Assembly (NCBI RefSeq): GCF_026013565.1 | Contig: NZ_JAPDOB010000001.1 | Coordinates: forward strand, 930,001-994,000 | From: Sphingomonas arvum | GTDB lineage: Bacteria; Pseudomonadota; Alphaproteobacteria; Sphingomonadales; Sphingomonadaceae | Length of the DNA: 64,000 nt | Direction of reading: 5' to 3' | Shown here: piece after piece, positions 28,384-32,955 of the stretch | Layout: every line of letters begins with the position of its first letter | Position numbering within the stretch: the first letter of the stretch is position 1 | Notes under the pieces: model-generated | Databases searched by the model: none | What the model saw: only the letters and a program-made list of their open reading frames with translations | Told to the model about the DNA's origin: nothing | Translations under genes and position numbers: made by a program

Positions 28384-28968
28384 ATGTCGCGTGCCGCCGT
28401 TCTCGCCTTTCCGCAAACCACGTTTGGCCGACCGCGCTGGAGCCCCGACGCGGACGTGCGCTTTTGGGTCGCGGCGCTGCTGTCGGTGGCGGTGCTGGCC
28501 TGCTGGCTGGGCCTGCTCGGCCGCCCGCTCGCCCCCCCGAGTGGGCTGCGGCTGTGGAGCGGTGACCTTGCCCGCGGTAACAGCCAGCAGCTGAGCGACG
28601 GCTATTCGCTGCTGCACCTGTCGTTCGGCGCGCTGATCGCGGCGCTGATGCGCCGGTATAACCCGCGGCTCGGCGGCGGCCGCCTGGCGCTCACGGTGGT
28701 GCTGTCAGCCGTGGTGTGGGAGGCCGTGGAGAACCTGCCCCCGGTCATCACCCTGTTCAGCGCTCCGGCGGGAGCGGCGAGCTACCATGGCGACAGCATC
28801 GTCAACTCGCTTGGTGATGTCGTCTTCGCCGGAGCCGGATTCGTCCTCGCCAGGCAGCTGAGCTGGCGCGGCATCGTGGCCCTGCTGGTCGGGATCGAGC
28901 TCGCCTGCGCCCTGCTGATCGGCGACGGATTGCTGTGGGGCAGCCTACGCTTGGCGGGGCTCGCGTAG
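28384..28968 (+). CDS. DUF2585 family membrane protein
   Basis: 194 residues, four to five hydrophobic helices. The conserved stretch 'NSQQLSDGYSLLHLSFGALIAALM' and 'WEAVENLPPVI...YHGDSIVNSLGDVVFAGAGF' fits the DUF2585 family. Function unknown. It is divergent from crtX (75 bases apart) and converges on crtW, overlapping it by 24 bases, so it is embedded in the carotenoid/rhodopsin island. DUF2585 genes are widespread in alphaproteobacteria, so the association may be chance. Confidence 0.75.
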   Translation: MSRAAVLAFPQTTFGRPRWSPDADVRFWVAALLSVAVLACWLGLLGRPLAPPSGLRLWSGDLARGNSQQLSDGYSLLHLSFGALIAALMRRYNPRLGGGRLALTVVLSAVVWEAVENLPPVITLFSAPAGAASYHGDSIVNSLGDVVFAGAGFVLARQLSWRGIVALLVGIELACALLIGDGLLWGSLRLAGLA

Positions 28969-29700
28969 GTCGCGCCGGTAACGCGGCAGGCGCCACCACG
29001 GCGTGTTTGGGCTGAGATGATGCTCGTGATGGTAGCCGAAGTGAAAGCAGGTCAGCAGCGAGGCCAGCCAGCCGAAATCGTTGGTCCGGCTGCGGTGATG
29101 ATCGGCGAAGGCCTGCTCCTCGTGGCGATGCGGCAGGAAGGTGCCGAAAAAGAATAGCTGCACCGACGACAGGATCGCCGGCAGCGCCCAGTACAGCAGC
29201 ACGTTGCCGATGTTGGCCCCGAGCAGCAGGACGTAGGTCCAGACAACCGCCGTGATCACCGCCGCCTCGCGCCAGCCGAAGTAGCGCCGCATGAAGCTCA
29301 GGTACCACGGCAGGAAGCGGGTCGGGTGGTCCGCCGAAAAGTCGGGGTCGCGCTCCGTCCCGACGTGCCGGTGGTGGTCGAAATGCTTGGGGCTCAGGCG
29401 ATCCATCCAGAAGCCGGCGTAGAGCAGCAGGGTGAGCCGCCCCCAGAAGCGGTTCACCGCCGGGCGACCGGGCGCGAGGCTGCCGTGCATGGCGTCATGC
29501 GCGACGATGAACAGGCCAACGCTGAGCCAGGTTAGGACCGGCACCAGCAGCGGAGCCCAGAGCAGCCCCGCCGAGGTCCAAGGATGAAAGAAGACAGCAT
29601 AAACGTGAAGCGCCAGGAACGCGGCGACGATCACGCTTGCCAGGGCGAGCCCCACGGCTGTCTGCCGCCGCTGTTCCGCCGTGCTGAGCATGCCCTTCAT
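28945..29700 (-). CDS. crtW: Beta-carotene ketolase (CrtW)
   Basis: 251 residues from ATG at 29700, with GGAAGG five bases upstream; ATG at 29691 is the alternative. It has the histidine clusters of membrane di-iron desaturase/ketolase enzymes: 'AHDAMHG', 'HFDHHRH', 'LPHRH' and 'FHFGYHHEHH'. The last motif and 'FFFGTFLPHR' are typical of CrtW rather than fatty acid desaturases. It adds 4-keto groups to beta-ionone rings, giving echinenone, canthaxanthin or astaxanthin-type products. Its start is 88 bases from the divergent rhodopsin operon. Confidence 0.88.
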   Translation of the reverse strand: MKGMLSTAEQRRQTAVGLALASVIVAAFLALHVYAVFFHPWTSAGLLWAPLLVPVLTWLSVGLFIVAHDAMHGSLAPGRPAVNRFWGRLTLLLYAGFWMDRLSPKHFDHHRHVGTERDPDFSADHPTRFLPWYLSFMRRYFGWREAAVITAVVWTYVLLLGANIGNVLLYWALPAILSSVQLFFFGTFLPHRHEEQAFADHHRSRTNDFGWLASLLTCFHFGYHHEHHLSPNTPWWRLPRYRRDLREPRQA

Positions 29701-29736
29701 GTAGGCCTTCCCACGCCAGCGGCCAAGCGGGCCGTG

Positions 29737-29762
29737 GGAACTGTCCCGTCCGCCTTCCAGTT
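29737..29762 (+). promoter_or_regulatory. Possible EcfG (general stress) sigma promoter for the rhodopsin operon
   Basis: GGAAC at 29737-29741, 17 bases, then AGTT at 29759-29762. The alphaproteobacterial general stress sigma factor EcfG prefers GGAAC, 16-17 bases, then CGTT, so one base of the -10 differs. It lies about 27 bases before the start of the first rhodopsin gene. Single-copy motif matches of this length can arise by chance. Confidence 0.35.
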
Positions 29763-29788
29763 TCGTGGGGGAGACAGGGAGAACAGCT

Positions 29789-30655
29789 ATGAATCGCAAC
29801 CAGTGGCTCGGCTTCGGCGCGGCGGCGTTCGGCGCCGGCTTCATCGCAATCCTCGCCCTTCGCCGGTCGCAGCGCAGCCAGCCGCCACAGGAGCGGCCCA
29901 AGACCTTGGCGGTGAAGACCCGCGAGGAGGAGAACGACAAGCTGATCCACAGCCTGGTCGTCCTGACCGCCGGCACCGCCTACCTCACCATGGCGAGCGG
30001 GCGCGGGCGCCACCACGCCAGCGATGGACACGAGGTGTTCTGGGTTCGCTATGTCGACTGGGTCATCACGACGCCCTTGCTGCTGACCGGCCTCGCGCTG
30101 ACGGCGCTCGGTTCGCCGTTCCGCCGCTGGGGCCTGCTGCTGAGCCTCTTGTTCACCGACGCCTACATGATCCTGACCGGCTACCTGGCCGACGAGGAGC
30201 CGCGCGGCAGCCCGATGAAGTGGACCTGGTACGGCATCAGCAGCGGGGCCATGGCCGGGGTTTACTACATGCTCTGGGGTCCGCTGATGGAGGAAGCCCG
30301 CAAGACCGGGCCGGAGGCGGAGGACGTGTACCGCCGCAACCTGACGTTCCTCAGCGCCGTGTGGGCGGCCTACCCCGTCAACTGGCTGGTCGGTCCGGAA
30401 GGGCTGGACCTGATCGACGAGGACAGCAGCACGGGCGTCTACACCGGCCTCGACATCACGGCGAAGATCCTGTTCGGCCTTTATTCGCTCAGCAACACCC
30501 AGGAGAAGTCGGCTGGCGAGCTGGCCGACGGCCGGGTTCCCGAGCACGAAATTCGGCCCTCGCCGACGGCGCATGTCGAGCGCTGGGAGCGCGGTAGCCC
30601 GACGGAGGGCCAGGCCGAAGGTGGCCGAACCCGCAGCCGGGCTCGCCGTGCATGA
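29789..30655 (+). CDS. Microbial (type I) rhodopsin, DTG motif, copy 1
   Basis: 288 residues, seven hydrophobic helices; AGGGAG seven bases before ATG 29789. Helix C has R87, D90, T94 and G101 ('RYVDWVITTPLLLTG'), the equivalents of bacteriorhodopsin R82, D85, T89 and D96, so the proton donor position is Gly (D-T-G). Helix G has D222 and the retinal Schiff-base K226 ('LDITAKILFG'). W192, Y195, P196 and W199 match the retinal pocket. E204 matches release residue E194, but the E204 position is S214. A 50-residue charged tail follows, with 'VPEHEIRPS' at 250-258. Most likely an outward proton pump; a sensor is possible. Confidence 0.93.
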   Translation: MNRNQWLGFGAAAFGAGFIAILALRRSQRSQPPQERPKTLAVKTREEENDKLIHSLVVLTAGTAYLTMASGRGRHHASDGHEVFWVRYVDWVITTPLLLTGLALTALGSPFRRWGLLLSLLFTDAYMILTGYLADEEPRGSPMKWTWYGISSGAMAGVYYMLWGPLMEEARKTGPEAEDVYRRNLTFLSAVWAAYPVNWLVGPEGLDLIDEDSSTGVYTGLDITAKILFGLYSLSNTQEKSAGELADGRVPEHEIRPSPTAHVERWERGSPTEGQAEGGRTRSRARRA

Positions 30656-31446
30656 GCGAGCAGGACTGGCTGTGGCTCGGCACCGCGGGTTTTGGCCTTG
30701 GGTTCCTCGTTCTGCTGGCGTTCGGCTGGAACCGGCGAACGCGTGACGAGGAGAGCCACTGGCTGATCCACCTTTTCGTGGTGCTGACCGCCTTCACTTC
30801 CTACCTCGTCATGGCGAGTGGGGGCGGGCGGCTGCTGCTGGCCGACGGGCGGGTGCTGTTCGTCGCGAGGTACATCGACTGGTCGATCACCACCCCGCTG
30901 CTGCTGCTCGGCCTGTCGCTGACCGCGCTGCACACGCCGTTCCGGCGTTGGGCGCTGGTGCTGGGGCTGATGGCGACCGACGCCTACATGATCGTGACCG
31001 GCCTGTTCGCGGACGCCGCGCCGGCCGGCAGCGCACTCAAGTGGACCTGGTATCTCGTCAGCAGCGGCGCCTTCGTGTTCATCTACCTGTGCCTGTGGGG
31101 CGCGATGCGGCGCGAGGCGGAGACCAGCGGCAAGCTGGCTGCGGCGGTGTACCGGCGCAACCTAACGTTCCTCAGCCTCGTCTGGCTGGCCTACCCCCTG
31201 GTGTTCCTGTTCGGGACCGAGGGGTTGCGCAGCCTGGGCGAGGGCACCGAAACCGCGCTCTACACCCTCTTGGACCTGACCGCGAAGGTCGCGTTCGGCC
31301 TGTTCTCCTTGGCGAACACCCGGCGGCGGGTCAGCGAAGAACTGCGCGCCGGGCTGGTGCCGGAACATGACCTGAGGCCAAGCCGCCAGGCGTTCCACGA
31401 GCAATGGGCGCCGGGCACCGGCCGGAGCGACGAGGACCGGCGGTGA
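30652..31446 (+). CDS. Microbial (type I) rhodopsin, DTG motif, copy 2
   Basis: 264 residues, starting at ATG 30652 in an ATGA overlap with copy 1. Helix C 'RYIDWSITTPLLLLG' gives R73, D76, T80 and G87 (D-T-G). Helix G 'LDLTAKVAFG' gives D208 and Schiff-base K212. Unlike copy 1 it keeps both proton-release glutamates (E190 and E200) and has F185 where copy 1 and bacteriorhodopsin have Trp. The tail repeats the motif of copy 1 ('VPEHDLRPS' at 236-244). Clearly a tandem duplicate of copy 1 that has diverged. Its stop overlaps the blh start. Confidence 0.93.
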   Translation: MSEQDWLWLGTAGFGLGFLVLLAFGWNRRTRDEESHWLIHLFVVLTAFTSYLVMASGGGRLLLADGRVLFVARYIDWSITTPLLLLGLSLTALHTPFRRWALVLGLMATDAYMIVTGLFADAAPAGSALKWTWYLVSSGAFVFIYLCLWGAMRREAETSGKLAAAVYRRNLTFLSLVWLAYPLVFLFGTEGLRSLGEGTETALYTLLDLTAKVAFGLFSLANTRRRVSEELRAGLVPEHDLRPSRQAFHEQWAPGTGRSDEDRR

Positions 31447-32273
31447 GCCTGGCCGCCCAGCTGCCGTGGCTGGCGGTTGCGGTGTTCCTGATCGGAACGC
31501 CGCACGGTGCGCTGGACCACCGCCTGGGGCGGCAGCTGCTGGCGCCGGGCTACGGCCGCTGGTGGGGCGCGGTGTTCGTGCTGCTCTATCTCGCGGTTTC
31601 GGCGGCCGCCCTGGGCGTGTGGCTGGCGACGCCGGTGCTGGCGCTGGCGCTGTTCCTCGGCATCGCGGCGGTGCACTTTGGCGAGCATGACAGCCCGAGC
31701 GGGCACCCGCTGGCGATCGCGGTCCGCGGCCTGGCCGGCCCGGTGGTCGCCGCCGCCGCGCACCCGGGTGAGCTGAAGCTGGTCTTCGAGTGGATCGCGG
31801 GCGAGGGCGGAACGGCGCTGGTGCCGTGGCTGGGCGGACCCGGGCTGCTGGCCTGGTTGTGCGGGGCTGCGGCGGTGCTGGTGCTGGAGCCGCGCCCGGC
31901 TGAGCGGCTGGAACTGGTGGCGGTGACCGCGCTGTTCGCCTTCGCCCCGCCGCTCCTCGCCTTTGCTGCCTACTTCGCCCTGCTGCACACGCCACGCGCG
32001 CTCAAGGGATCTAAGCGGCCGGGCGAGAGCTGGAGCGCCCTGCTGCGCTCGGCAGCGCCGTTGAGCGGCGCGGCGGTGCTGCTGGGAATAGTCGGCTTTC
32101 TGCTCTGGCGCGACCAGATGGCGGCGGAGGCGGCGCTGGTCCGCACCACCTTCTGGTGGCTCGGCGCGCTGACCGTGCCGCACATGGGCCTGGCCCTGCT
32201 GGCTAAGCGAACCAGCCCCACAGCAGCCGCGCGGTCAGCCCCAGGCTTGCGACGATCAGCAGCGGCCGGATGA
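31443..32273 (+). CDS. blh: Beta-carotene 15,15'-dioxygenase, Brp/Blh family (retinal formation)
   Basis: 276 residues from GTG at 31443, whose GTGA overlaps the rhodopsin stop, so the three genes are translationally coupled. Multi-helix membrane protein with the conserved histidines of Brp/Blh: 'GTPHGALDH' at the N-terminus, 'HFGEHD', 'LHTPRALK' and 'TVPHMGL'. It cleaves beta-carotene symmetrically to two retinal molecules, the chromophore of the two rhodopsins upstream. Its 3' end overlaps the convergent TSUP gene by 71 bases. Confidence 0.9.
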   Translation: MSLAAQLPWLAVAVFLIGTPHGALDHRLGRQLLAPGYGRWWGAVFVLLYLAVSAAALGVWLATPVLALALFLGIAAVHFGEHDSPSGHPLAIAVRGLAGPVVAAAAHPGELKLVFEWIAGEGGTALVPWLGGPGLLAWLCGAAAVLVLEPRPAERLELVAVTALFAFAPPLLAFAAYFALLHTPRALKGSKRPGESWSALLRSAAPLSGAAVLLGIVGFLLWRDQMAAEAALVRTTFWWLGALTVPHMGLALLAKRTSPTAAARSAPGLRRSAAAG

Positions 32274-32955
32274 GCCGCGCACCGAATCGCATGGCCGTGT
32301 GACTGCCGAGCCAGCCGCCGCTCATCGCACCCACCGCCATGCACAAGCCCAATAGCCACAGCACCTTGCCGCCGAGCGCGAACAGCAGCACGGCGGCGAA
32401 GTTGCTGGTCCAGTTGAACAGCTTGGTAAGCGCCGTGGCCTTGGTCAGGCCATAACCGCGCAGCGCGACCAGCGAGCTGGTGAAGAAGCTGCCGGTGCCG
32501 GGCCCGAAAAAACCGTCGTAGAAGCCGATCCCGCCGCCGATCGGCGCATAGCCGCGACTGGTCACCCGGTGGTGCGCATCCTCGTCCGTCATTCGCGGCG
32601 AGAGCAGGATGTAAGCGGCGTTGCCGAGCAGCAGCAGGGGGATGATCAGGCTCAGCCACCTGGCATCGACCTGCTGCACGACCAGCGCGCCAGTCGCTGC
32701 GCCGAGGAAGATCAGGCCGACCGCCCGCAGGTTGGGCCGCCATTCCAGCAGGCCCTTGGCGTTATAGTTCAGCAGGGCGACGAAGGTGCCGCACATCGAC
32801 TGCAGCTTGTTGGTGCCGAGCGCCAGCAGCGGAGGCACGCCGCTCGTCAGCAGGGCCGGCATCATGATCAGCCCGCCGCCGCCGGCGATGGCGTCGATGA
32901 ACCCGGTGACAAAGGCGACGGCGGTGAGGACGGCGTAAAGCCACGGTTCGATCAT
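32203..32955 (-). CDS. TSUP family membrane transporter (TauE/SafE, YfcA-like)
   Basis: 250 residues from ATG at 32955 (an upstream in-frame start at 33000 adds 15 unlikely residues). Two repeats of helices, each starting with a Gly-rich turn: 'GFIDAIAGGGGLIMMPAL' and 'GFYDGFFGPGTGSFF'. That is the TSUP signature. The family carries sulfite, sulfoacetate or related organic anions; the substrate here is unknown. Convergent with blh. Confidence 0.88.
   Translation of the reverse strand: MIEPWLYAVLTAVAFVTGFIDAIAGGGGLIMMPALLTSGVPPLLALGTNKLQSMCGTFVALLNYNAKGLLEWRPNLRAVGLIFLGAATGALVVQQVDARWLSLIIPLLLLGNAAYILLSPRMTDEDAHHRVTSRGYAPIGGGIGFYDGFFGPGTGSFFTSSLVALRGYGLTKATALTKLFNWTSNFAAVLLFALGGKVLWLLGLCMAVGAMSGGWLGSHTAMRFGARLIRPLLIVASLGLTARLLWGWFA

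Follow-up and report, generated by a model that had tools for sequence, protein, structure and literature searches.

Two divergent D-T-G rhodopsin genes side by side with a retinal synthase gene in Sphingomonas arvum

The locus

The genes considered here lie in a 64,000-nucleotide stretch of DNA from Sphingomonas arvum (NCBI RefSeq assembly GCF_026013565.1, contig NZ_JAPDOB010000001.1, positions 930,001 to 994,000 of the forward strand), which is referred to throughout as the window and in whose own numbering all coordinates are given unless a locus is named. A single operon in the window holds, side by side, two clearly different paralogous rhodopsin genes, here called opsin A and opsin B, together with blh, the gene of a retinal synthase; this is an uncommon layout. 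Its parts are as follows.

29789 to 30655, plus strand: opsin A, 288 amino acids, a D-T-G rhodopsin (PF01036, 142 bits; alignment; model)
30652 to 30655, plus strand: ATGA start/stop overlap of A and B (sequence), suggesting translational coupling
30652 to 31446, plus strand: opsin B, 264 amino acids, a D-T-G rhodopsin (PF01036, 151 bits; alignment; model)
31443 to 31446, plus strand: GTGA start/stop overlap of B and blh (sequence)
31443 to 32273, plus strand: blh, beta-carotene 15,15'-dioxygenase (retinal synthase), 276 amino acids, GTG start (PF15461, TIGR03753)

Both opsins are type 1 microbial rhodopsins, as judged from their PF01036 matches (cut-off 24.6 bits) and the Schiff-base Lys in helix G, and their AlphaFold models are confident seven-helix rhodopsins (mean predicted local distance difference test score, pLDDT, 92.2 for B and 87.2 for A); the blh product scores 143.9 bits against TIGR03753 (cut-off 95.25 bits) and also matches PF15461. 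An earlier reading of the window, made without database searches and called here the sequence-only reading, had described two opsins and blh joined by ATGA and GTGA overlaps, and the coordinates and family matches agree with it. It had also allowed that an error of frame or assembly might have created the second copy, or that the two copies might prove near-identical. Neither is the case: the reading frames of A and B are free of stops, their G+C is similar (G+C at third codon positions, GC3, is 0.90 and 0.92), and the two proteins are only 54% identical in the alignment, so that an assembly duplicate is excluded and, with the frames intact, an artefact of either kind is ruled out. From the overlaps we infer that A, B and blh are translationally coupled. 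A scan of positions 29600 to 32400 on both strands gave no promoter-like site and two terminator-like sites (1.0 expected), and is uninformative.

The locus was compared with those of two metagenome-assembled genomes (MAGs) titled uncultured Sphingomonas, AVDCRST_MAG31 and AVDCRST_MAG09 (MAG31 and MAG09 below). MAG31 has the order glycosyltransferase, CrtW-like gene, opsin, blh and TauE as in the window (the genes being partly named by eye), and MAG09 has the same order with one extra open reading frame (ORF) of 639 amino acids between blh and TauE. Each has a single opsin, both in its 12.8-kb locus and in its genome (G066 and G064), and that of MAG31 is joined to blh by GTGA too. By alignment both are of the A type, with the motif D-T-S. 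A further genome, AVDCRST_MAG62, also has an A-type opsin, the contig ending inside the gene.

Active-site residues and the differences between A and B

Sites are named by their equivalents in bacteriorhodopsin, whose numbering we have bridged to A and B through that of SpaR. The alignment behind these site numbers was made to the SpaR numbering of PMC10154332. On it, both opsins have the equivalents of Arg82, Asp85, Thr89, Asp212 and Lys216, with Gly at the 96 site and His at the Thr46 site, and this bears out the sequence-only reading, which had listed the Schiff-base Lys, Arg82, Asp85 and Thr89 equivalents and the Gly at the Asp96 site in both. The regions in which the two are best compared are these.

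29876 to 29917, plus strand: opsin A, 14 extra residues in the loop joining helices A and B, lacking in B (alignment)
29927 to 29950, plus strand: opsin A, beginning of helix B, E47 E48 N49 D50 ... H54, with H54 at the Thr46 site (alignment)
30748 to 30771, plus strand: opsin B, beginning of helix B, E33 E34 S35 H36 ... H40 (alignment)
30518 to 30586, plus strand: C-terminal tail of opsin A, ELADGRVPEHEIRPSPTAHVERW (alignment by eye)
31339 to 31407, plus strand: C-terminal tail of opsin B, ELRAGLVPEHDLRPSRQAFHEQW (alignment by eye)

The helix A-B loop insertion is found in the MAG opsins too, with varying sequence. The tail of A resembles those of B and of the MAG31 and MAG09 opsins, a pattern ELxxGxVPEHxxRPS being common to all of them, and the first part of it recalls the tail of Methylobacterium proteins (by eye).

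A and B differ at several functional sites. Colour is governed by the 93 site, and proton release by the 194/204 pair. At the 194/204 sites the alignment has Glu and Glu in B and Glu and Ser in A, so that B alone has both Glu residues of the bacteriorhodopsin release pair (a pair also named in PMC10154332). The cytoplasmic mouth has Asp in A and His in B, and site 95 has Thr in A and Leu in B. Around the retinal, differences picked out by eye lie at sites 139 (Gly in A, Leu in B), 145 (Met, Phe), 188 (Asn, Val) and 189 (Trp, Phe); at the last two, which are retinal-ring sites, the MAG opsins have Asn-Phe. At the green/blue switch site A and B alike have Leu, and the suggestion in the sequence-only reading of two pumps tuned differently thus finds little support if it is taken to mean a blue/green colour split. 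Its other suggestion, a pump plus a sensor, finds none, there being no transducer among the neighbouring genes scanned (a genome-wide search was not made).

Two further types of rhodopsin were compared on single residues. A carotenoid antenna of the xanthorhodopsin type depends on Gly at the fenestration, the Trp138 site of bacteriorhodopsin; in the present alignment most of the xanthorhodopsin-like sphingomonad rows have that Gly, and A and B both have Tyr, which rules out such an antenna using keto-carotenoid from the neighbouring CrtW-like enzyme. Chloride pumps of the halorhodopsin type have a neutral residue at the Asp85 site; A and B both have Asp there and so lack this feature.

Trees and the origin of the pair

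Two trees were made, as the sequence-only reading had proposed. The first has 37 rows, namely 36 opsin ORFs chosen from the fetched loci plus 8xx8 (a solved structure described below), and includes the two MAG opsins but leaves out the cut-off one of MAG62; the second has 30 rows, after removal of 8xx8, L083, L087, L088, L046, L047 and L010. Both drew long-branch warnings elsewhere in the tree. The first unites A with the MAG opsins in one clade (100/100), to which B is sister (100/99); in the second the corresponding values are 98/99 and, with B, 95/98. An arrangement with A and B as sisters is rejected by the approximately unbiased (AU) test in both (p-AU 0.0008 with 37 rows, 0.0006 with 30), which rules out B as a recent duplicate of A and makes it an older paralogue. 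On these trees the split between A and B predates the parting of the window species from the MAG species, which leaves B with one of two histories, loss from the MAG loci or entry from a close relative.

In the second case B would owe its place between A and blh to horizontal transfer out of a related lineage and not to a duplication in this one. The lack of B in two syntenic loci would fit this, and a donor close to the A/B clade would yield the same tree; against it, A and B are alike in G+C, GC3 and C-terminal tail, together with the MAG opsins they form one clade, and no donor came to light in the searches made. On balance this origin appears rather unlikely.

The pace of change was compared by counting strictly derived sites (four for the A type, five for B) and unique changes in A and B against several outgroups. 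The latter came to 31 in A and 15 in B, and 34 and 14, with the Methylobacterium proteins, 27 and 16 with 8xx8, and 28 and 16 with Solirubrobacterales; with SpaR-like outgroups they were 23 and 17, 21 and 15, and 18 and 16. A may thus be evolving faster than B; the strength of this signal varies with the outgroup, however, and we draw no conclusion from it.

Among the other rows, five sphingomonad opsins (from L003, L014, L015, L016 and L017) form a clade of their own (100/100) with Pro at the Asp212 counterion site; these keep Asp85, Thr89 and the Lys, have Thr, Val or Ala at the Asp96 site, and show no blh match within short flanks. In a plasmid rhodopsin of Deinococcus aetherius (L083:1710-2447) the Asp85 site is occupied by Thr and the Asp96 site by Gln.

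Likeness to known rhodopsins

Rhodopsins with D-T-G or D-T-S motifs have been divided into two groups (PMC10154332): a SpaR-like group of proton movers, marked by His32-His33 and in most cases Ser121/Ser199, and an MpR-like one, named for MpR of Methylobacterium populi, most members of which have Glu32, Glu33 and Asp35 and one member of which is reported to pump Na+/Li+ (Cho 2021, cited in PMC10154332). By this signature A and B are MpR-like. The alignment gives opsin A the full set E, E, D, as in the fetched Methylobacterium proteins, where these residues are numbered 32, 33 and 35, and opsin B the set E, E, H, that is two of the three. At the positions of the His32-His33 pair A has Asn-Asp and B Ser-His; the Ser121 site has Asp in both, and the 199 site has Ser in A and Glu in B.

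The trees agree with the signature in one respect and leave it less certain in another. The 11 SpaR-like rows form a clade (100/99) without A and B in both trees, so that on this sampling A and B stand outside the SpaR-like group. The sequence-only reading had placed them among D-T-G rhodopsins reported in sphingomonads; D-T-G they are, but the Sphingomonas protein SpaR belongs to this other clade, and A and B lack its His-His pair. The positive placement is looser. In the 37-row tree the A/B group, Methylobacterium and 8xx8 come together in one clade (85/90); in the 30-row tree the A/B group and Methylobacterium are not a clade in the best tree, though such a clade is not rejected (p-AU 0.40), and neither is a wider clade of the 11 SpaR-like rows with A, B and the MAG opsins (p-AU 0.23) nor one of Methylobacterium with the SpaR-like rows (p-AU 0.24). 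A and B are therefore MpR-like by signature but not firmly so by tree.

With the MpR-like group A and B share the D-T-G/S motif, the His at the Thr46 site, a helix B that opens with Glu-Glu(-Asp), and a blh gene nearby, which follows the opsin on a Methylobacterium plasmid (L080); the tandem arrangement and the His that B has for the third acidic residue set them apart. Two Methylobacterium plasmid proteins (MpR itself being outside the comparison) are 33-35% identical to A and 39-41% to B. The likeness to the SpaR-like ‘mirror proteorhodopsins’ (SpaR, PspR and PaR), in which proton pumping at acidic pH only and inhibition by zinc are a class trait, extends to the motif, to the equivalent of His37 and to an opsin gene that overlaps or abuts blh; the differences are those of residues and clade just described. 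The nearest solved structure to both opsins is 8xx8, Glycilhalorhodopsin of Salinarimonas soli (identity 44% to B over 244 residues and 40% to A over 243), which has the Glu-Glu signature and, like A, Asn at the 188 site; the literature search brought up no paper on it. However, where A and B have Asp at the Asp85 site and His at the Thr46 site, 8xx8 has Thr and Gln, and on account of that Thr its halorhodopsin label does not carry over to them.

One member of the MpR group is reported to move Na+/Li+, beside the proton-moving SpaR-like proteins (PMC10154332), and it is for the question of what the group transports, and which residues decide it, that the pair may be of wider use: A and B lie in one operon but have different residues in the third place of the signature and in the release pair, and could be compared in one host and one expression system. 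The same difference invites an explanation in terms of different ions, in which A (E-E-D) would move Na+/Li+, or both Na+ and H+, and B, with its His and full release pair, would move H+. The paralogues do differ at a residue of the very signature that separates the two groups, and A agrees there with Methylobacterium; in the text of PMC10154332 consulted, however, the signature is a difference of sequence between groups and not a tested determinant of the ion, B keeps two of its three residues, and the MAG opsins carry the same E-E-D as A. We consider this explanation unlikely.

How rare the pairing is

The sequence-only reading had proposed a survey of paired against single copies, and this was carried out, with two matches counted as adjacent if on one contig and within 2 kb of each other. 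The counts were made on match lists, and for family, class and order these lists are complete. There is overlap between the samples, each of which includes the window's own genome, and several genomes are incomplete. In the genus, 11 of 71 genomes have a PF01036 match and only the window's own has an adjacent pair, the matches in two others (G058 and G067) ending at contig edges. For the family the figures are 58/397 with a match and 1/397 with a pair, for the class 36/385 and 1/385, and for the order (A2 profile) 34/346 and 3/346. A scan of 84,980 species with two short patterns, which is of limited reach and may omit the window's own genome, gave relatives in 6 of 87 candidate stretches (three of the A type, three from Solirubrobacterales and none of the B type), and a scan of viral contigs gave one (L097), close to the Methylobacterium proteins. 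Of the loci read after profile searches of class, phylum and order (higher-ranked matches in the last case), none but the window's own has the Glu-Glu signature.

Tandem opsin pairing is thus rare but not unique: in Sphingomonadales two kinds of tandem were met, of which A and B are one. The other kind occurs in two genomes (G1229 and G1261) of another family of the order, where the rhodopsin types differ from A and B: each tandem (L122:1775-3332 and L123:2134-3734) comprises two D-T-E rhodopsins about 100 bases apart. The colour-switch site is Gln (blue type) in the first, which is proteorhodopsin-like by eye, and Leu (green type) in the second, which is xanthorhodopsin-like by eye. No match to blh was obtained in the stretches read, and the tandem in L122 is followed by ORFs resembling crtE, crtI and crtB (named by eye). 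Genomes with at least two rhodopsins are otherwise known, as in Dokdonia, Nonlabens and the FArhodopsin paralogues (PMC10308929), but the members of those pairs belong to different functional classes, and FArhodopsin is thought unlikely to bind retinal (same source). Sphingomonas aerolata has two DTG/DTS homologues, each beside its own dioxygenase gene (PMC9584328). A search of the literature, in which most papers turned up were known by abstract only, found no description of a tandem DTG pair; the parts of the present locus are of known kinds, and it is the combination of tandem, MpR-type signature and divergence at functional sites that was not found described in the literature searched.

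Proposed function

SpaR has the same set of Asp85, Thr89, Arg82, Asp212 and a His at the Thr46 site; outward proton pumping at acid pH has been described for it and its His37 proposed as proton donor (PMC10154332), and it is from this set that outward proton pumping is predicted for A and B. The reading we prefer, to which we would give an even chance, is that the operon yields two paralogous outward proton pumps together with their retinal, and that the two are divided not by colour but by how protons are taken up and released. Asp85 would accept the Schiff-base proton in both, and the His at the Thr46 site, standing in for the Asp96 donor, would help to reprotonate the Schiff base. In B an early release might then proceed through the Glu pair 194/204, and in A, whose second release site is Ser and whose cytoplasmic mouth has one Asp more, release would come later, coupled translation keeping A, B and the supply of retinal in step. 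A and B most likely differ in release or in pH behaviour. The residues at which they differ are thought relevant to ion choice and release mode; that they are functionally paired at all is something we infer from the anatomy of the locus. Of the division of labour put forward in the sequence-only reading, these residue differences make the general idea plausible, and its versions based on colour or on a sensor are unsupported.

Several points weigh against the proposal of two proton pumps. The Na+/Li+ pump reported in the MpR group means that proton pumping cannot simply be assumed, and the placement within the MpR clade is itself not firm. B is dispensable in the two MAGs, which keep the A type only, and the case for constraint on it depends on its intact residues. 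In the structure search 8xx8, with its halorhodopsin title, stands above all other structures (Z 35.1 for B, 34.7 for A). In favour of the proposal, SpaR (32.4 for B, 32.6 for A) and PspR (31.3 and 31.4) count with the nearest of the solved proton pumps, although further rhodopsins, 6kfq and xenorhodopsin for example, tie with them.

Two other accounts of the pair have to be weighed at this point. The copies might be redundant, doing the same job and raising the amount of pump, with B in the course of being lost from the genus. The single opsin of the MAG loci and the core residues common to A and B would fit this, but 54% identity and differences at functional sites go beyond what dosage alone needs, and copies kept for dosage would usually be near-identical; it seems to us rather unlikely. 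Alternatively A and B might form a mixed trimer in which one partner tunes the other, an idea with which the plausible co-translation, the trimeric state of SpaR (PMC10154332) and the similar C-terminal tails are all compatible; since two MAGs have the A type without a partner, we regard it as very unlikely. The broader view that takes in both this and a difference of ions, namely that a Na+-type DTG pump and a proton pump, ancient paralogues split at the MpR signature and the release pair, are co-translated so as to move different ions or to form a mixed oligomer, is in our estimation decidedly improbable beside two proton pumps differing in uptake and release.

Genomic setting

Upstream of opsin A, and divergent from it, lies a further gene.

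28945 to 29697, minus strand: CrtW-like beta-carotene ketolase (NF045690, 223.6 bits, below the cut-off of 350)

A CrtW-like ORF occupies the matching place in MAG31 (72% identical) and in MAG09 (by eye). The genome, of 2.75 Mb, has no PF01036 matches besides A and B in the profile search, and none to the reaction-centre family PF00124. It does have a strong match to the lycopene-cyclase family PF05834 (287 bits over residues 1-378 of 380), but as this family also matches in 10 of 14 control genomes the match counts as support only. After blh, on the opposite strand, comes a TauE/SafE gene. The 639-residue ORF of MAG09 (L044:7637-9556, minus strand) has no counterpart at that place in MAG31 or in the window; conversely, a DUF2585 gene at 28384 to 28968 lies between the CrtW-like gene and the glycosyltransferase gene in the window, with no such ORF there in the ORF lists of MAG31 and MAG09 (by eye).

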